Below are positions 2,420-38,722 of a stretch of 64,000 nucleotides of DNA, in pieces. Each line of letters opens with the position of its first letter. Positions within the stretch are counted from its first letter, which is position 1. The stretch comes from Chloroflexota bacterium (GTDB lineage: Bacteria > Chloroflexota > Anaerolineae > UBA2200). Location of the stretch: the NCBI GenBank assembly GCA_014360905.1, contig JACIWW010000010.1, positions 1 through 64,000 of the forward strand, given 5' to 3'. The position numbers and the translations under genes were made by a program. Below the pieces are notes generated by a model, which did no database searches, had not been told where the DNA came from, and was given only the letters and a program-made list of their open reading frames with translations.

Positions 2420-4822
2420 ATGGAAGGGCAGGAAGTCATCGCCTACTGCCTGAAATGCCGTGAAAAAAGGATTCTGCAAAATCCTGAACCTATCTATACC
2501 GCGGCAAGGAACCCAGCAACACGCGGCAGATGTCCGGTCTGCGGCACTACTCTAGTGAAAATGGGCCGTACGGAAGCCCATGCTGCTATACCCGCACCCC
2601 CACGTACAGCCCGTACTCGCAAGGCAGAGGATACTGCAGAGAGAAAACGCAACAGTCGGTTGGTCATCGTTGAATCCCCAGCCAAAGCGAGGACTGTGGG
2701 CAGATTCCTCGGCAAGGAATACCAGGTTGAGGCTTCAGTTGGGCATGTACGGGATCTTCTGCGTTCCCGTCTGAGCGTGGACGTGGAGAACGACTTTGCC
2801 CCAACTTATCACGTGCCAAAGGAGAAGCGCGAAACCGTCCAGCGCTTGAAAAAAGTGGTTAGCCATGCCAGAGAAGTCTACCTGGCCACTGACCCCGACC
2901 GTGAAGGAGAGGCCATCGCCTGGCATTTGATTGCTGCTGCAGCCATTCCCGAAGAAATTGCCCACCGCGTTGTTTTCCATGAGATTACAGATGCAGCGGT
3001 TAAGGAAGCATTTGCGCACCCTCGGAAACTGGACATGGATCTGGTCAACGCCCAACAAGCCCGGCGCATCCTAGACCGCCTGGTAGGCTATAAAATTAGC
3101 CCGTTACTGTGGCATAAAGTGCGCAGCCGTCTTTCAGCCGGTCGGGTGCAGTCTGTAGCGGTACGCCTAATCGTGGAGCGCGAACGAGAGATACAGGCTT
3201 TCATCCCAGTCGAGTATTGGTCTATTGCGGCAGAACTAGCCAAGCAGGAGACGCGCGCACTTGAGCCGCGACCCAGTTTCATTGCGAAATTGATAAAGAT
3301 CCGCGGCGAGGAAGTTGACCTCAAGGATGAACCAGCAGCCCAGTCTATTGTGGATGACCTGGAAGGCGCCCTCTACATTGTGGGTGATGTACGCAAGTTT
3401 CAGCGGCAGCGCAAGCCGCCTGCCCCGTTCATTACTAGTAGCCTGCAGCAGGAGGCATTCCGCCATTTGGGCTTTACTGCCAAACGTACAATGGCCGTCG
3501 CTCAACAGCTCTACGAAGGCGTAGACCTAGGTCAGGGCGAGCGCGTCGGTTTGATTACCTACATGCGCACGGATTCCACCAATATTGCTCCAGAAGCAGT
3601 TGGACAAGCAAGATCTTATATCGAAAAGAAATTTGGCGGCAATTTTTTGCCGGAAAAACCGCCCTTTTACAAAACGCGCGCCGTGAAGGCGCAAGAAGCT
3701 CACGAGTGCATCCGCCCTACTTCGGTCTGGCGTGAGCCAGATGCCATCAAAAACTACTTGGATACAGATCAATATTGCCTTTATCAACTAATCTGGAAAC
3801 GGTTCATCGCCAGTCAGATGCGTCCAGCTATCTATGATGTGACCTCTGTGGATATCAAGGCTGGCCATCTGGAAGCAGAGAGGACTGTGCCTGAAGGTAA
3901 TGCTCTTCAATCGTTCCTAGATGCGCTGCCTTATCTCTTTCGTGTCACCGGTTCCACTCTTGCCTTCCCTGGCTTCCTGCTGGTGTATGAGGAGGCAAAA
4001 GATGAGGGCGTGATTGCGGAAGAAGACGCGGGTGCCCTGCCCCGGCTCGAAATTGGCGAGATTCTGGATTTGCTTCGGTTGATCCCGGAGCAGCATTTTA
4101 CTCAACCGCCTCCGCGTTATACCGAAGCCTCCCTGATACGCGAACTTGAGAAGCATGGCATTGGCCGACCCAGCACTTATGCTCCCATACTGTCCACGAT
4201 ACAGGAACGAGGTTATGTGGATCGGGCGAATAAACATTTGGTACCTACGGAACTGGGGTTCCTGGTCAATGACCTCTTGGTGGAGCATTTTCCAGATATT
4301 GTGGATGTTCAATTCACAGCGCACATGGAGGAAGACCTCGATCGCATTGCCGCAGGGGAACGAGAGTGGGTGGCTGTACTGCGCGAATTCTACGGACCTT
4401 TTGAGCGCACTTTGCAGATGGCCGAGCAAAACATGCAAAAAATAGACCTAGCCCCTGAAGAAACAGGGCTAATTTGTGAGAAGTGTGGCAGTCCTATGGT
4501 GGTCAAGTTAGGACGCTACGGAAAATTCATTGCCTGCAGCAATTTTCCTCAGTGCCGCAATACCCGACCTTACGTAGTTAAAACGGGAGCCAAATGCCCC
4601 CAGTGTGGTGGGGATTTGCTGGAGAGAAGGACTCGCAAAAAGCGCATTTTCTACGGTTGTGCCAACTACCCTACTTGCCAGTTCACCATCTGGCAACGTC
4701 CTTTGGCAAAGGCTTGCCCAAACTGTGGTGGTTTGCTCATTGAATCTGGCAAAGGGAAAGCAAAATGCTTGCGTTGCCAGCAGGTATTCAAGAGCGAGGT
4801 GGAATCTGAGAAGAGAACTTGA
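2420..4822 (+). CDS. topA: DNA topoisomerase I with extra N-terminal zinc ribbon
   Basis: Type IA topoisomerase of 800 residues that relaxes negative supercoils. The Toprim domain starts near residue 80 (LVIVESPAKA) and carries DPDREGEAIAWHL at about residue 157. The active-site tyrosine is Y381 in GLITYMRTDST. Three C-terminal zinc-binding modules (CEKCG, CPQCG, CPNCG pairs) complete the protein. Unusually, the first ~78 residues are an extra CLKC...CPVC zinc ribbon resembling DUF5679, followed by a basic linker. The 3' end overlaps the putative start of the xer gene. Confidence 0.97.
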   Translation: MEGQEVIAYCLKCREKRILQNPEPIYTAARNPATRGRCPVCGTTLVKMGRTEAHAAIPAPPRTARTRKAEDTAERKRNSRLVIVESPAKARTVGRFLGKEYQVEASVGHVRDLLRSRLSVDVENDFAPTYHVPKEKRETVQRLKKVVSHAREVYLATDPDREGEAIAWHLIAAAAIPEEIAHRVVFHEITDAAVKEAFAHPRKLDMDLVNAQQARRILDRLVGYKISPLLWHKVRSRLSAGRVQSVAVRLIVEREREIQAFIPVEYWSIAAELAKQETRALEPRPSFIAKLIKIRGEEVDLKDEPAAQSIVDDLEGALYIVGDVRKFQRQRKPPAPFITSSLQQEAFRHLGFTAKRTMAVAQQLYEGVDLGQGERVGLITYMRTDSTNIAPEAVGQARSYIEKKFGGNFLPEKPPFYKTRAVKAQEAHECIRPTSVWREPDAIKNYLDTDQYCLYQLIWKRFIASQMRPAIYDVTSVDIKAGHLEAERTVPEGNALQSFLDALPYLFRVTGSTLAFPGFLLVYEEAKDEGVIAEEDAGALPRLEIGEILDLLRLIPEQHFTQPPPRYTEASLIRELEKHGIGRPSTYAPILSTIQERGYVDRANKHLVPTELGFLVNDLLVEHFPDIVDVQFTAHMEEDLDRIAAGEREWVAVLREFYGPFERTLQMAEQNMQKIDLAPEETGLICEKCGSPMVVKLGRYGKFIACSNFPQCRNTRPYVVKTGAKCPQCGGDLLERRTRKKRIFYGCANYPTCQFTIWQRPLAKACPNCGGLLIESGKGKAKCLRCQQVFKSEVESEKRT

Positions 4823-33663: not shown

Positions 33664-33688
33664 TTTTGTTCTCACAATGTGTTATAAT
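33664..33688 (+). promoter_or_regulatory. Extended -10 promoter and operator-like site of the BTAD regulator
   Basis: TGT-TATAAT (33680-33688) is a TGn-extended -10. Immediately upstream TTTTGTTCTCAC (33664-33675) matches TTTTGTAAGCAC, the direct repeat at 37090-37113, in 9 of 12 positions. It lies the same 7 nt from its -10 as the inner repeat there. This suggests autoregulation by the downstream regulator. Confidence 0.55.
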
Positions 33689-33718
33689 TTGTGATAAGTA
33701 CGAACAAGGAGTTGGAAC

Positions 33719-33736
33719 GTGAACAACTTACACTAG
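33719..33736 (+). CDS. Possible 5-codon leader ORF before the regulator
   Basis: GTG-AAC-AAC-TTA-CAC-TAG encodes MNNLH. It follows a good AAGGAG SD (33706-33711) with 7-nt spacing and ends 12 nt before the regulator's ATG. It may be a translated leader affecting initiation of the regulator gene, or a chance match. Confidence 0.3.
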   Translation: MNNLH

Positions 33737-33748
33737 AGTGGCAGAGGC

Positions 33749-36700
33749 ATGGTTAGTTCTTCGCCGTTGATCGTTACTCAGATACTAACGCCCAAGAAGC
33801 GTCCCGATTTGCTGCACCGGCCGCGGCTCGTTGACTTTATCCACGAGCATATTGACCGCAAGTTGCTGCTCATCTCCGCCTCGGCGGGCTATGGCAAGAC
33901 CTCATTGCTCATTGATTATGCTCATGATACCGATTTGCCGGTTTGCTGGCTATCCATAGTGGAGTCAGCACGCGACCCTCGTGTATTTCTGGATTATCTG
34001 ATTGCTGCGATCAATCACCATTTCCCTGGATTTGGGGAGAACTCGCGCAACTTGCTGCAATCTAGCGAAACGCTCTCTGATCCCACATTGTTTGTTGGCA
34101 CATTGGTCAATGAGATCTATGAGAAAATCCCCGATTACTTCGTCGTGATCATAGACGACTATCACCTCGTTGACGAGAGCCGTGCGGTTAACCATATCGT
34201 GGATGCTCTGATTCAGCACTTGCCTGAGAACTGCCATTTCATCATTTCTAGCCGTAGCATCCCTGTGTTGACTCCTCGTGGCTTGGCCTTGCTCACTGCT
34301 CGTCAACAGATCGCTGGTCTCGGCGTGAAAGATCTGCGTTTCACACCCGAGGAAATTCAAGCACTTCTTTGGCAGAACTATGGACAACGACTTTCTGACG
34401 CAGCGGCGCAAGAACTGGCCGAGAAGTCAGAGGGCTGGATTACGGGCATATTGTTGACCACGCACACGATGTGGAAAGGACTTTTCGAAGGCATGGTCCG
34501 CATCCAGGGGTCTGACAGCAGGGTCTACGAGTACTTGGTCAACGAGGTGTTCAATCTCCAACCCCCCCAGGTGCAAGATTTTTTGCTTTCCACATCCATC
34601 CTGGATGAAATGAGTCCCCTACTCTGCGATGAGCTACTTGAGGTCAGCAACTCTCGCGATATGCTCAAGTCACTAGAGGAGAAGAACCTGTTTCTGATCC
34701 GCCTGGAACGGGGAGAGGAAAGATGGTATCGGTACCATCATTTATTCCGGGAATTTCTGCAGACCAAGTTCCAGGAGGAAAAGCCCGAACGGGTCCGCGC
34801 ATTGCATGCGCGCGCTGCTAGAATACTTTGGGAAAGCGGGGCGATAGAGCAGGCGATTCACCATTATTTGCTCGCCCAGGACTATCACAGTGCCGTGGAA
34901 GCCATTCTCCAGATAGCCCGCGAAACCTTTGATGCTGGCAAGCTCGAAACCCTGACGCGTTGGATTGATGCTCTGCCTCCGAACATGCTCCAAGATAGAC
35001 CTCGCTTGTTGTGGTTTCGGGCCAAGATACATGCTGACATGGGACAATTGGAGCAGGCGACCGAACTTTTTGAGCAGGCATATGCCGGATTTGCTCGCTC
35101 TGAGGATTTGCTGGGTCAGGCGCTCACATTGGTACACAAGAGCACCGTTTTGCGCTTTCAGGGCGAGTTCAGGGAGGCCATAGAAGCCTGTAAGCAAGCC
35201 ATTTCTTTGGCGCAGGGAATTGGGCAGCGGGATGATGCGCTGCGCGTTATTGCGGATGCCCATCGGCAGATTGGCACCTGCCAGGCGAACCTGGGCAATC
35301 TGTCGCAAGGCGAAGAAGAATTACGTCAGGCCCTTGATATCTATGAGCAATTACGTTCAACGACCAATATCGCCTATGTACACAATGACCTGGGGGCTAT
35401 CCTGCGGCGTGCAGGCAATCTGACAGGGTCTGAGCTGCACTTCCGACAAGCGCTCGAGATTTGGGAAAAATTGGGGAATGTGGGCATGGCCGCTCTGACT
35501 ATCAACAACATAGCCGTTGGCCATTATTATCGTGGGGAATACGCTGAAGCACTTCAGCTCTATGAAATGGGCTTGCAACAGGCGCGCAAAGCAGGCTTGG
35601 ATCGCCCGATGGCTTTCATTCTAGCTGGTATGGGGGATGTGTATAAGGACCAGGGTGCATACGCAGAAGCATTGAAAGCCTATGAAGAGGGATTACAAGC
35701 AGCGCGCCAATCTAGGGAAAGCTTTATCATTAGCTATTTGTTGGATGCTATTGGCAACACCCATCGCCTGATGGGCAACTTTGCCCAAGCAATAGCTCTC
35801 ATACGCCAAGCCTATGAGCGAGCACAGGAACGAGATTCTACTTATGAGATAGCATTGTATCAGATTTCATTGGGTGCGCTCCACTGCCAGCAAGGCAGCA
35901 TTCGCCAAGCGGAGGCATATCTTGGACAAGCGCGCACCGTCTTCATGCGTAGCAATGCAAAAAGGGAATTGGCTAAAGCAAGCCTCTACCTTGCACACGC
36001 TTATTATATTGGCGGCCGTTTCCAAGAGGCTTTAGACTGCATACAGACCGTATTGGATTGCTTATTGACGTTGGGTTATGACCAGTTTCTCTTGCCCGTT
36101 GCCAGGGAAACCAAACGGGTGATTCAATACGCTGTAGCCAATGGCATGGCAGACACCTTGATCAGTGAGTTGCTAAAGAAAGTGGATGCAGCTACAATGC
36201 CGGCCATGGAGGTCGCTGTTACACCGGAACCTGTTGCTCAACCCATCTTATGTATTTACGCCTTTGGCGAGAGCAAGGTTTTAAGAGGTGATCGACTCAT
36301 TCCGAACTCCGAATGGGGCACGACCAAGGCAAAGGAACTCTTGTTTTATCTGCTATGTCATAAACAACGACGCAAAGATCAGATCGCTAGCGATCTTTGG
36401 CCAGAATCATCTACAGCCAAGGTACGTGCTTCCTTTCACGTTACCCTTTACCGCCTGCGTCGTGCTTTAGCACAGCACGATTGTGTGAAATATGAGGAGG
36501 ATCGGTATTTCTTCAACCGACGCATCAACTACTGGTTTGATGTAGAGGAATTTGAGCATGCTATTCAGAACGCGGCTTCGGTCTGGGCTACGAACCGAGC
36601 TAGGGCAGCTCAATACTACCATGCAGCTATTGCTCTGTATCACGGCGACTTCCTGGAGGATCTTTCATCTGCTCAAGAATGGTGCCTTTTCAAGAGGGAA

Positions 36701-36997
36701 GAACTTCGTCAGCAGTATTATATCGCCTTACACCGCCTGGGGCAATATCACGCTGATCAAAGCAACTATAAGGCGGCAATTGACTTCTATGAAAAAGCGC
36801 TAGAAGTAGATAACTATCAGGAGAATACATATTGGGAAATGATGCGATGCCAAGCACTGTTGGGTGAACGTAGTGCCGCACTGAGGACCTACCATCGCCT
36901 GGCCAAGGTATTGGAAGAGGAGCTCGATGCCAAACCTGCACGCGAGACAACCGAACTCTATGAGCAGATCCTGCGCGGGGAAATCGGCCCAGGTTGA
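33749..36997 (+). CDS. MalT-like STAND regulator with TPRs and C-terminal winged-helix/BTAD domain
   Basis: 1082 residues. An N-terminal STAND NTPase has Walker A SASAGYGKTSLL (about 44-55) and Walker B FVVIIDDYHLV (about 131). A winged-helix segment and many TPR repeats fill residues 350-800. The C-terminus (from about 830) has a wHTH with a typical WGTTKAKELLFYLL helix and a BTAD domain (EWCLFKREELRQQYYIALHR, then YHRLAKVLEEELDAKP). Such proteins are ATP-dependent transcription activators switched by a ligand bound in the TPR part. It precedes a small-peptide locus whose promoter carries direct repeats, a binding pattern known for BTAD/SARP regulators. Start ATG 33749 with a modest GAGG. 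Confidence 0.9.
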   Translation: MVSSSPLIVTQILTPKKRPDLLHRPRLVDFIHEHIDRKLLLISASAGYGKTSLLIDYAHDTDLPVCWLSIVESARDPRVFLDYLIAAINHHFPGFGENSRNLLQSSETLSDPTLFVGTLVNEIYEKIPDYFVVIIDDYHLVDESRAVNHIVDALIQHLPENCHFIISSRSIPVLTPRGLALLTARQQIAGLGVKDLRFTPEEIQALLWQNYGQRLSDAAAQELAEKSEGWITGILLTTHTMWKGLFEGMVRIQGSDSRVYEYLVNEVFNLQPPQVQDFLLSTSILDEMSPLLCDELLEVSNSRDMLKSLEEKNLFLIRLERGEERWYRYHHLFREFLQTKFQEEKPERVRALHARAARILWESGAIEQAIHHYLLAQDYHSAVEAILQIARETFDAGKLETLTRWIDALPPNMLQDRPRLLWFRAKIHADMGQLEQATELFEQAYAGFARSEDLLGQALTLVHKSTVLRFQGEFREAIEACKQAISLAQGIGQRDDALRVIADAHRQIGTCQANLGNLSQGEEELRQALDIYEQLRSTTNIAYVHNDLGAILRRAGNLTGSELHFRQALEIWEKLGNVGMAALTINNIAVGHYYRGEYAEALQLYEMGLQQARKAGLDRPMAFILAGMGDVYKDQGAYAEALKAYEEGLQAARQSRESFIISYLLDAIGNTHRLMGNFAQAIALIRQAYERAQERDSTYEIALYQISLGALHCQQGSIRQAEAYLGQARTVFMRSNAKRELAKASLYLAHAYYIGGRFQEALDCIQTVLDCLLTLGYDQFLLPVARETKRVIQYAVANGMADTLISELLKKVDAATMPAMEVAVTPEPVAQPILCIYAFGESKVLRGDRLIPNSEWGTTKAKELLFYLLCHKQRRKDQIASDLWPESSTAKVRASFHVTLYRLRRALAQHDCVKYEEDRYFFNRRINYWFDVEEFEHAIQNAASVWATNRARAAQYYHAAIALYHGDFLEDLSSAQEWCLFKREELRQQYYIALHRLGQYHADQSNYKAAIDFYEKALEVDNYQENTYWEMMRCQALLGERSAALRTYHRLAKVLEEELDAKPARETTELYEQILRGEIGPG

Positions 36998-37041
36998 ACA
37001 GTGACATAGTCGCATTCGCATAGTTGGATTTGCACGAAAAT

Positions 37042-37063
37042 GGGGCTGGGAAAGCCCCTTTTT
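37042..37063 (+). terminator. Intrinsic terminator after the BTAD regulator
   Basis: GGGGCT and AGCCCC form a 6-bp GC stem with a 5-nt loop, followed by TTTTT. It separates the regulator transcript from the small-peptide promoter. Confidence 0.8.
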
Positions 37064-37089
37064 CATCACTAGCAGCCTGTTTTGGGCCT

Positions 37090-37126
37090 TTTTGTAAGCA
37101 CTTTTGTAAGCACCCTCCGCTACAAT
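37090..37126 (+). promoter_or_regulatory. Activator-type promoter with two perfect 12-bp direct repeats
   Basis: TTTTGTAAGCAC occurs twice back to back (37090-37101 and 37102-37113). Seven bases later comes a -10 box TACAAT (37121-37126), and there is no -35 at normal spacing. Direct repeats ending 7-8 bp before the -10 are how SARP/BTAD activators bind. An ATG follows the -10 by 10 nt. Confidence 0.7.
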
Positions 37127-37136
37127 GGATACAGAA

Positions 37137-37208
37137 ATGAGCATTGCGGAACTTATTCTTGAGAGCGGCAATGCTGTGCGCAAACTTGAGAGGAGGATAA
37201 AGAAATGA
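37137..37208 (+). CDS. 23-residue ORF coupled to the exported peptide
   Basis: The ATG at 37137 is 10 nt after the -10, so it would be near-leaderless. The product, MSIAELILESGNAVRKLERR plus three residues, is basic and helical. Its TGA overlaps the next ATG (ATGA, 37205-37208). Its 3' part supplies the GAGGAGG SD of the next gene, so it could act as a translated leader controlling that gene. Part of it (GNAVR) resembles SNTVR of the next peptide. Supported by context only. Confidence 0.45.
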   Translation: MSIAELILESGNAVRKLERRIKK

Positions 37209-37342
37209 GGAAGTGGTTGCCAACTATCTACAAACTCGCGAACAGCAATACCGTGCGCCTAGTGTGGATCTTGCTGGTTATCAGTGCATTGGTGCTAGGC
37301 AGCGGTGCTCCTGAAGCTTTTGGTGGCACTGGCGGTGGATGA
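37205..37342 (+). CDS. 45-residue exported peptide with glycine-rich tail (candidate signalling peptide)
   Basis: The strong SD GAGGAGG lies 6 nt before the ATG. The product has a basic start (MRKWLPTIYK), a hydrophobic helix (residues 19-32, LVWILLVISALVLG) and a short tail SGAPEAFGGTGGG. This is the layout of a secretion leader plus a small mature peptide of about 7-10 residues, or of a tiny membrane peptide. No homologous family is recognised with certainty. The promoter with direct repeats, the upstream TPR-type regulator and the downstream membrane protein make a pheromone-like role plausible, which is inference. Confidence 0.6.
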   Translation: MRKWLPTIYKLANSNTVRLVWILLVISALVLGSGAPEAFGGTGGG

Positions 37343-37412
37343 TTGTGGTCTAGGCTGCATGACCAGTGTATAGACTCTTGTGCTACATATTGCCTAGCGC
37401 GTTTCTCTTGAC

Positions 37413-38006
37413 ATGATCCTTATAGCTGCGATTGTGGCTTCCATTGTCGTTGCGCTGCTACGAGGGGGACGGTTTACTAATCTAATTAACATTCCGTTAC
37501 GATGGGGGCTTCTGGCAGTGACAGCGTTTGCCATTCAAGCCCTCTTTATTTACCAAAAGCCGATACACAAAAGCATTGGCGTCTGGGGATGGCAAGAGAT
37601 ACTCTTTATGGTGTCGCATCTATTGTTGCTGGCGACTGTTTGGGCAAACCGCCATCTGCCCGGAGTCAAACTAATCGGACTGGGTTTGCTGCTGAACTTT
37701 ATCGTGATGGTTGTTAACGGGGGCTGGATGCCGGTTACTCCTGAGGCAGTGGTTAAGGTAGGACATACTGGACTTGTCCCTTCCTTGGAATCTGGTACAC
37801 GCGTATATAGCAGCAAGAACATTATCTTGCCAAGGGAGCGGACGAAATTGCAGTTTCTATCTGATGTCTTGGTCTTGGCCAGGCCCTTCCCAATCCCAAC
37901 GGTTTTCAGCATCGGGGATATATTGGTTGCAGCGGGTGTCTTTTTGCTCATACAAGGAGCGATGTTGGGACATGTGGGAAGCGCTGGCGCCGATAAAACG
38001 GTTTAG
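37413..38006 (+). CDS. DUF5317 membrane protein
   Basis: 197 residues matching DUF5317: start MILIAAIVASIVVALLRGGRF, middle LLLNFIVMVVNGGWMPVTPEA, end FPIPTVFSIGDILVAAGVFLL. About five TM helices; function unknown. There is no clear SD before the ATG at 37413, but it lies 70 bp after the exported peptide in the same direction. Its stop overlaps the SD of the next small gene. A sensor, processing or immunity role for the peptide is conceivable. Confidence 0.85.
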   Translation: MILIAAIVASIVVALLRGGRFTNLINIPLRWGLLAVTAFAIQALFIYQKPIHKSIGVWGWQEILFMVSHLLLLATVWANRHLPGVKLIGLGLLLNFIVMVVNGGWMPVTPEAVVKVGHTGLVPSLESGTRVYSSKNIILPRERTKLQFLSDVLVLARPFPIPTVFSIGDILVAAGVFLLIQGAMLGHVGSAGADKTV

Positions 38007-38015
38007 GAGGGAATG

Positions 38016-38231
38016 ATGACGACAGCATCTCTTTCTCAAATTATTGGCACAGCCGTTATTGATGACGGTTTTCGGAGCGCTCTCTTGAGCAATCCCAAGC
38101 GCGCTCTAGCCCAGTTCAATCTGGAGGCCAATGAACTGCGCAGCATCGCGTCCATCCGCGCTAACACAATCGAGCAGTTCGCTGAGCAATTGATTGTATG
38201 GATGAACGATCACGAACCAGAGTGGGCATAG
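38016..38231 (+). CDS. NHLP-like small protein (Os1348/Franean1_4349 type)
   Basis: 71 residues. The pattern LSQIIGTAVIDDGFRSALLS followed by NPKRALAQFNLEANELRSI matches nitrile-hydratase-leader-like (NHLP) small proteins, which are annotated as RiPP precursor leaders or standalone proteins of unknown role. No clear core peptide follows; the end is NDHEPEWA. Start ATG 38016 is 5 nt after AGGAGG; the ATG at 38013 is too close to it. No RiPP maturase is in the window. Confidence 0.75.
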   Translation: MTTASLSQIIGTAVIDDGFRSALLSNPKRALAQFNLEANELRSIASIRANTIEQFAEQLIVWMNDHEPEWA

Positions 38232-38260
38232 TTTAGGATAGAATAGCGGGAATTTACTTC

Positions 38261-38722
38261 ATGAACCAATCTTCTCGTGCTTTGATGCCATGCAGGATAT
38301 TGCTCGTTGATGATGAGCAGGAGATCCTCGATATCTTGGTACGAGTGCTGAGACCGGCAGGGTACGAAGTGGACACGGCTAGCAATGGGCAGGCGGCCCT
38401 GCAAAGGATAGCGTATCAGGATTATGACCTGATCATTACCAACATTAGGATGCCCGTTCTGGATGGGCGGGCATTCTATCGCCAATTGTGTGCTTTGTAT
38501 CCCCACTTGAGCCAGCGCGTCGTCTTCTGTACCGGTGATACAGCTGATGTGGCCACGCAAAGCTTTTTGAACTGCACCGGCGCCCCGGTAATCTTCAAGC
38601 CGTTCCAACTGAGCACCGTGTTGGAAATGGTATCGTACAAGTTGGCTGTATGCCGCGCCCCGATTCCAGTCCCGCCCTCACAGCGGTCTCAAACAGAGGC
38701 AGTCGTTTTGCCAACGACTTGA
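38261..38722 (+). CDS. Stand-alone receiver domain lacking the phospho-acceptor Asp
   Basis: 153 residues, a CheY-like receiver with no output domain. Acidic pocket D17, D18 and E19 (LLVDDEQE), Thr91 (FCTGDT) and Lys113 (FKPF) are conserved. The residue that should be the phospho-Asp is Asn61 (DLIITNIRMPVLDG, codon AAC at 38441). It is therefore an atypical receiver that probably acts through protein binding rather than phosphorylation. A 40-residue C-terminal tail is low-complexity. It follows the NHLP-like gene by 29 bp. No histidine kinase is nearby. Confidence 0.88.
   Translation: MNQSSRALMPCRILLVDDEQEILDILVRVLRPAGYEVDTASNGQAALQRIAYQDYDLIITNIRMPVLDGRAFYRQLCALYPHLSQRVVFCTGDTADVATQSFLNCTGAPVIFKPFQLSTVLEMVSYKLAVCRAPIPVPPSQRSQTEAVVLPTT

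Follow-up and report, generated by a model that had tools for sequence, protein, structure and literature searches.

In Streptomyces, the small-protein gene afsS is a target of the activator AfsR and lies adjacent to its gene; we know of no export of AfsS, a protein of 63 amino acids (aa), and of no DUF5317 or NHLP genes in that system. The locus described here, at positions 33,749 to 38,722 of a stretch of 64,000 nucleotides (positions 1 to 64,000 of contig JACIWW010000010.1, hereafter the window) from a Chloroflexota genome of 2.83 Mb in 49 contigs, encodes a large regulator, a 45-aa peptide and, further downstream, a DUF5317 membrane protein. It resembles the AfsR-AfsS pair in its Streptomyces antibiotic regulatory protein (SARP) activator joined to an ATPase and tetratricopeptide repeats (TPRs), and in direct repeats near the -10 element, which in the AfsR case are paired and 11 bp long (PMC10936776). 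In AfsR, however, the SARP part is N-terminal and followed by NOD and TPR, whereas the order here is reversed, with the SARP part C-terminal after a MalT-type signal transduction ATPase with numerous domains (STAND). The RRNPP/RRNPPA group (NprR, PlcR, Rap, Rgg) likewise pairs a TPR protein with a neighboring short peptide that has a (predicted) export signal and a C-terminal tail; yet its receptors comprise 250-500 aa with an N-terminal HTH_3 domain (PMC10075063), whereas the window regulator has 1082 aa, includes a STAND ATPase and carries its SARP part at the other end. According to published reports, the RRNPP systems known so far come from Firmicutes and the mobile elements of these bacteria, and the 250-500 aa limit that RRNPP_detector sets on receptors would make it miss the present locus (PMC10075063); "RRNPP-like" means here no more than that the locus might work like an RRNPP system. 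With the MalT family, the regulator shares a homologous N-terminal ATPase and winged-helix part (Protein Data Bank [PDB] entry 8bob) followed by a TPR sensor, but its output domain is a SARP and not a LuxR-type helix-turn-helix (HTH). SARP-LAL regulators of the PimR type are similar in their SARP DNA-binding domain, STAND-type ATPase and heptameric direct repeats (PMC5930380), and differ in their reversed domain order and in having no known peptide partner. The literature searched (open-access only) yielded neither an account of DUF5317 nor one of a BTAD/STAND peptide system, nor any described system of peptide signalling in Chloroflexota. A link to the Thermotoga peptide TM0504 was considered as well, and that literature yielded no paper naming this peptide. 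All the component types are known individually; their combination did not turn up in the literature searched and has a fair chance of representing a new class of peptide signalling.

The regulator, the peptide and the genes that usually follow them form a conserved module that extends well beyond the window genome. In the window, the order is regulator, terminator, repeat promoter, peptide, DUF5317, NHLP-clan protein and receiver, all on the (+) strand. An earlier, sequence-only reading of this DNA had named a regulator, a direct-repeat promoter, a 45-aa peptide, a DUF5317 protein, an NHLP-like protein and a receiver without phospho-Asp, all of which were found where it had placed them; its suggestion that synteny be sought in other Chloroflexota proved fruitful as well. 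Among 83 Chloroflexota loci containing the C-terminus of the regulator, of which about 10 are duplicates from contigs that had been fetched two times, leaving near 70 independent loci, the peptide gene lies directly downstream on the same strand in 82. The closest relative found, the metagenome-assembled genome JACIWX010000001, contains the entire module with a regulator 83% identical to that of the window; the module is spread over many families of Anaerolineae, and its carriers include at least one isolate, Bellilinea caldifistulae GOMI-1 (L169). We consider it close to an even call that the module is a self-contained peptide-signalling circuit, in which a dedicated STAND-TPR-SARP activator serves one operon headed by an exported peptide. 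The features of the regulator, promoter and peptide are as follows.

33749..36997, (+) strand: regulator of 1082 aa with STAND (MalT-like ATPase), TPR and C-terminal SARP activator (predicted winged HTH plus BTAD) parts, assigned from Pfam, PDB sequence matches and an AlphaFold model
37042..37058, (+) strand: intrinsic terminator after the regulator gene, GGGGCTGGGAAAGCCCC TTTTT, from a terminator scan
37090..37113, (+) strand: predicted SARP-type operator, two exact copies of TTTTGTAAGCAC at 37090-37101 and 37102-37113
37121..37126, (+) strand: -10 element TACAAT, 7 bp past the second repeat, from the sequence, without a paired consensus -35
37191..37196, (+) strand: Shine-Dalgarno sequence AGGAGG of the peptide gene, from the sequence
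37205..37342, (+) strand: GAP-family peptide of 45 aa, MRKWLPTIYKLANSNTVRLVWILLVISALVLGSGAPEAFGGTGGG, from alignment, the ratio of nonsynonymous to synonymous substitution rates (dN/dS) and a family profile

Residues 11 to 419 of the regulator match the MalT STAND structure 8bob (PDB sequence search, E 4.6e-38), and the sequence features a Walker A motif (SAGYGKTS) and a Walker B motif of the DDxH type (IIDDYH). The AlphaFold model has a predicted local distance difference test (pLDDT) value of 85, and its top PDB fold match is MalT as well (8bob, target TM-score 0.85). Helical repeats in the model form a TPR superhelix at approximately residues 410 to 815, in accordance with a TPR_12 match in the Pfam scan (E 2.9e-40); among generic TPR matches in the PDB sequence search, residues 588 to 771 match the RRNPP peptide receptor NprR (2.5e-7). 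The SARP part, residues 830 to 1080, is predicted to consist of a winged HTH and a BTAD domain. Specifically, BTAD was detected at residues 930 to 1075 (PF03704, E 6.7e-24), and residues 834 to 922 have a predicted strand and helix order compatible with a winged HTH, with no match to Pfam Trans_reg_C; the BagI/FevR SARP model of NCBIfam aligned with residues 873 to 1080 below its cut-off (2e-6). The C-terminus lacks a LuxR HTH and has BTAD instead, the MalT equivalog model scoring 274 against a cut-off of 537, and the Pfam scan found no HTH_3 domain.

The terminator at 37042-37058 closes the transcription unit of the regulator and separates it from the peptide operon. The 12-bp repeat TTTTGTAAGCAC is present in two exact adjoining copies and has no other match in the window. 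The TACAAT element is absent from the sigma-70 scan listing and has no consensus -35 partner, as expected for an activator-dependent promoter. When the region from the regulator stop codon to the peptide was searched in 70 loci, perfect 8/8 direct repeats were found at period 11 in 23% and at period 12 in 43%, versus 0.3% in shuffled sequences, while periods 8-10 and 13-16 were at or near chance; because the enrichment at 11 and 12 lies so far above the shuffles, chance repeats are excluded. A TAnnnT element follows within 30 bases of the repeats in 46 of 56 loci (38% in shuffles), the gap between the second copy and the -10 being most often 8 or 9 bp and usually 7-10 bp. The rule for SARP sites in the AfsR paper is a repeat spacing of 11 or 22 bp and 8 bp to the -10 (PMC10936776), and the predicted sites, with a period of 11-12 and a -10 distance of mostly 8-9 bp (7 bp in the window), have the geometry of SARP direct-repeat operators.

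The repeat sequence itself differs between lineages (GTAAGCAC, CGTGAGT, TGAAGCC, AGCTAAAC), and these differences track the DNA-binding domain of the regulator over its TPRs (partial Mantel 0.461 versus 0.145) and over BTAD (0.412 versus 0.182). Within 3 mismatches, the 24-bp operator occurs at a single site in its own genome, and in the sister genome it likewise stands solely before the peptide; being unique in the two genomes checked, it makes the regulator appear dedicated to the peptide operon. By computation, therefore, the earlier proposal that the regulator acts at the promoter at 37090 holds up: given the SARP geometry, the covariation of operator and DNA-binding domain and the genome-unique operator, the repeats are very probably where the regulator binds, and its control of the peptide operon is well supported. 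The accompanying suggestion of autoregulation was not borne out, as no operator within 3 mismatches was found at the regulator gene and the site precedes solely the peptide operon in both genomes.

The peptide family was discovered with DUF5317 as a hook, short open reading frames (ORFs) being then sought between the regulator and DUF5317 and aligned. Its members display a basic N-terminus, a hydrophobic helix, an invariant Gly-Ala-Pro (GAP) motif and a short Gly-rich tail; the family has no match in Pfam or NCBIfam, and profile searches returned essentially one strong locus, or one tandem cluster, per genome. Among 90 distinct sequences, 86 start with ATG and 88 are preceded by at least 4 of the 6 positions of AGGAGG; the N-region is net positive in 98%, the tail is neutral or acidic in 96% and net positive in 4%, and the commonest tail length is 8 residues. 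The sequence-only reading had made its case depend on conservation of this frame, and the dN/dS value is 0.17 in frame versus 1.23 in the +1 frame (20 disjoint close pairs), indicating from substitution patterns that the frame is under purifying selection. A chance small ORF was accordingly rejected, on the grounds of dN/dS, the Shine-Dalgarno sequences and the invariant GAP. The position two residues before the GAP glycine is Ala, Gly or Ser in 96% and the position directly before it is freer, which yields a (-3,-1) signal-peptidase pattern with a cut between Gly and Ala-Pro; in the window peptide, cleavage is predicted between G34 and A35, giving APEAFGGTGGG. The genome encodes one signal peptidase I and has nine to ten matches to SBP_bac_5, the Opp-type binding protein family. 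Judged from sequence features alone, export of the peptide is plausible, in view of the net-positive N-terminus, the cleavage-like motif A/G/S-x-G-A-P, the signal peptidase I and the Opp-type binding proteins.

Several loci depart from the usual arrangement. The one exception to the pairing, L161 (1800-2640), retains the regulator and the repeat promoter and lacks the GAP peptide; its downstream ORF starts with a different hydrophobic segment, and peptide loss or replacement is possible. GAP peptides also occur outside the class, in G077, G087, G221, G348 and G406; the regulator adjoins the peptide in the first four of these, being divergent from it yet adjacent in G077, and the G406 contig begins just upstream of the peptide. 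In G077 (L216, 5640 and 9117), a second peptide copy lies 3.5 kb further on, before DUF5317, and the two tails, NDWPGG and NDWPGP, differ by one residue. Tandem arrays of 2 to 4 peptide genes whose tails are nearly identical were seen in L138, L139, L140, L153, L159 and L088, with long C-terminal extensions on some copies in L139 and L140; in RRNPP systems, duplicated pheromone sequences occur within a propeptide (PMC11343458). A second subfamily with a similar helix and the tail GA[TD].KWH is located near DUF5317 without a SARP regulator (L092, 6016-6111, and L224, approximately 4560-4650, both on the (-) strand), the L092 copy adjoining a MASE9-like HD-GYP protein; peptides of this subfamily may have other regulators.

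In the proposed circuit, the peptide would insert into the membrane with its N-terminus inside and its C-terminus outside, signal peptidase would cut the GAP motif after its G, and a product of approximately 10 residues, Ala-Pro...Gly-Gly, would be released and re-imported through Opp-type permeases. Binding of the peptide to the TPR superhelix would, together with ATP, relieve STAND autoinhibition, whereupon the SARP domain would bind the direct repeat at 37090-37113 and recruit RNA polymerase. The outcome would be positive feedback and expression of DUF5317, as membrane partner of the peptide, and of the NHLP-clan protein, with a cyclic di-GMP (c-di-GMP) phosphodiesterase of the HD-GYP type, a histidine kinase or, in the window, a degenerate receiver as signalling output.

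The tails bear on what reads the peptide. Copies within one genome differ in their tails by a mean of 0.06 (0.02 when each locus contributes one pair; six independent loci), whereas their helices diverge; between species, pairs with matching helix divergence differ in their tails by 0.36-0.40, and 0 of 5000 resamplings were as low as the same-genome copies. The tails thus look as if one receptor constrained the copies within a genome. L177 has two distinct regulators, and the peptides encoded after them differ in their tails. The principal alternative is a circuit of the AfsR-AfsS kind, in which the TPRs sense another ligand, much as MalT responds to maltotriose, and the peptide serves as output only, a single-pass membrane microprotein that together with DUF5317 steers the HD-GYP protein, kinase or receiver. 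Against it, tails that are constant among same-genome copies and change between species better suit a soluble signal, up to four tandem peptide genes per one DUF5317 would be odd for a stoichiometric subunit, and a signal-peptidase-like motif stands before the tail. In favor of this alternative, AfsR, a SARP with NOD and TPR, activates the small-protein gene afsS via direct repeats, the helix and GAP are more conserved than the tail, and DUF5317 and the peptide share genomes whether or not they are linked (22 and 21 of 60 genomes); moreover, DUF5317 is fused to EAL in Euzebya and adjoins HD-GYP in module loci. We regard the AfsR-AfsS-like circuit as a serious possibility that is nevertheless clearly short of even chances. 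The narrower proposal that the peptide is a mere passenger subunit of DUF5317 was weakened, since regulator and peptide form an adjacent pair without an adjoining DUF5317 in four genomes (G007, G011, G012 and G033).

A number of observations weigh against a circuit in which the TPRs read the peptide, or are neutral toward it. Covariation of tail and TPR, considered as proof of recognition, decides neither way: it is weak, does not exceed the correlation of the tail with STAND or with DUF5317, and disappears once either of these is controlled for. Between species, the tail is under weaker constraint than the helix and GAP, which is not what would be expected of a pheromone that is strictly read and whose leader is disposable. 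The peptide co-occurs with DUF5317 as tightly as with the regulator, and its partner may therefore be DUF5317; GAP peptides without a nearby SARP regulator were found in G045 and L147. The operator signal itself narrows when set against STAND (partial Mantel 0.298 for the DNA-binding domain versus 0.231), and because it falls to 0.298 under this control, it partly reflects shared ancestry. Finally, that the peptide leaves the cell, returns and touches the TPRs is a sequence of events that we infer. Both partners may be involved, DUF5317 handling or sensing the peptide at the membrane and the TPRs reading it inside.

The helix covaries with STAND and TPR (0.65 and 0.60, respectively) more strongly than the tail does, as would suit negative feedback close to the membrane, in which the peptide stays there and binds or tethers the regulator as a small anti-activator. 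This correlation could, however, be plain phylogeny; the cytoplasmic N-terminal stretch comprises approximately 4 residues in some families (e.g., MKRIYFTVV), leaving little for cytosolic contact, and GAP, the most conserved part, would face outwards. We consider such an anti-activator improbable.

Downstream of the peptide, the window contains the following genes.

37413..38006, (+) strand: DUF5317 membrane protein of 197 aa (PF17248, E 5.2e-39)
38013..38231, (+) strand: Os1348-family NHLP-clan small protein of 72 aa (NCBIfam NF038399, E 2.4e-14, 53 bits versus a cut-off of 40)
38261..38722, (+) strand: stand-alone receiver with Asn at the phospho-Asp position (LIITNIRMP; PF00072, E 5.2e-21, and comparison with relatives)

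Across loci, the genes recurring after the peptide are DUF5317 (60 loci), the NHLP-clan protein (52) and a signalling protein (52), counts that are approximate owing to greedy ORF calling. The signalling protein varies, being HD-GYP in several Anaerolineae including Bellilinea, a histidine kinase, or a receiver as in the window. The phospho-Asp position of the receiver is occupied by Asn in four genomes of the family (the window and three relatives) and by Asp in G003, which, from this comparison, points to a lineage-specific loss. The match of the NHLP-clan protein to the Os1348 family lies above the cut-off and the peptide tail is short and Gly-rich, features that could fit a bacteriocin operon or one for a ribosomally synthesized and post-translationally modified peptide, with either of the two as precursor. 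Such an operon is nonetheless very unlikely: no modifying enzyme or peptidase-ABC transporter family was found in the recurrent downstream clusters (representatives domain-scanned), the NHLP-clan proteins have no repeated or cysteine-rich core, and GAP precedes the tail, with no PCAT-type double-Gly leader motif recognized.

In the same 60 genomes, DUF5317 occurs in 22 and the peptide in 21, linked or unlinked (Fisher 3e-15), and in a wider set the two occupy the identical 16 genomes of the class. Non-Chloroflexota DUF5317 loci (L162, L170, L205 and L207) showed neither regulator nor peptide, some of these contigs being short upstream. On a plasmid of Euzebya pacifica (L232, 2950-5490), an EAL-domain protein encoded next to GGDEF/EAL genes has DUF5317 as its N-terminal part, and in other Chloroflexota (L211, 2094-4031; L214, 2212-4317) DUF5317 is fused to the N-terminus of MFS_3-type transporters. 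Together with the signalling neighbors, these EAL and MFS fusions suggest a membrane module around c-di-GMP signalling or transport. The structural model of DUF5317 (pLDDT 89.8) had no PDB fold match at E <= 0.001. An intramembrane protease, considered because of the invariant D151 and S-x-G-D169, was set aside, as only 18 residues separate the two Asp and the model places no helix between them.

The broader proposal, which we put forward tentatively and at somewhat below even chances, is that STAND/TPR/SARP receptors reading self-induced GAP peptides, coupled via DUF5317 to c-di-GMP or two-component signalling, constitute a class of peptide quorum sensing that is common in Anaerolineae and undescribed in the literature searched. 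The module is testable because the peptide family, the operator and the activator are defined and the isolate Bellilinea caldifistulae GOMI-1 carries it. If true, peptide sensing would be extended from small RRNPP receptors to STAND ATPases, SARP regulators would gain a peptide ligand and DUF5317 its first functional handle, in a large phylum that is mostly known from metagenomes.

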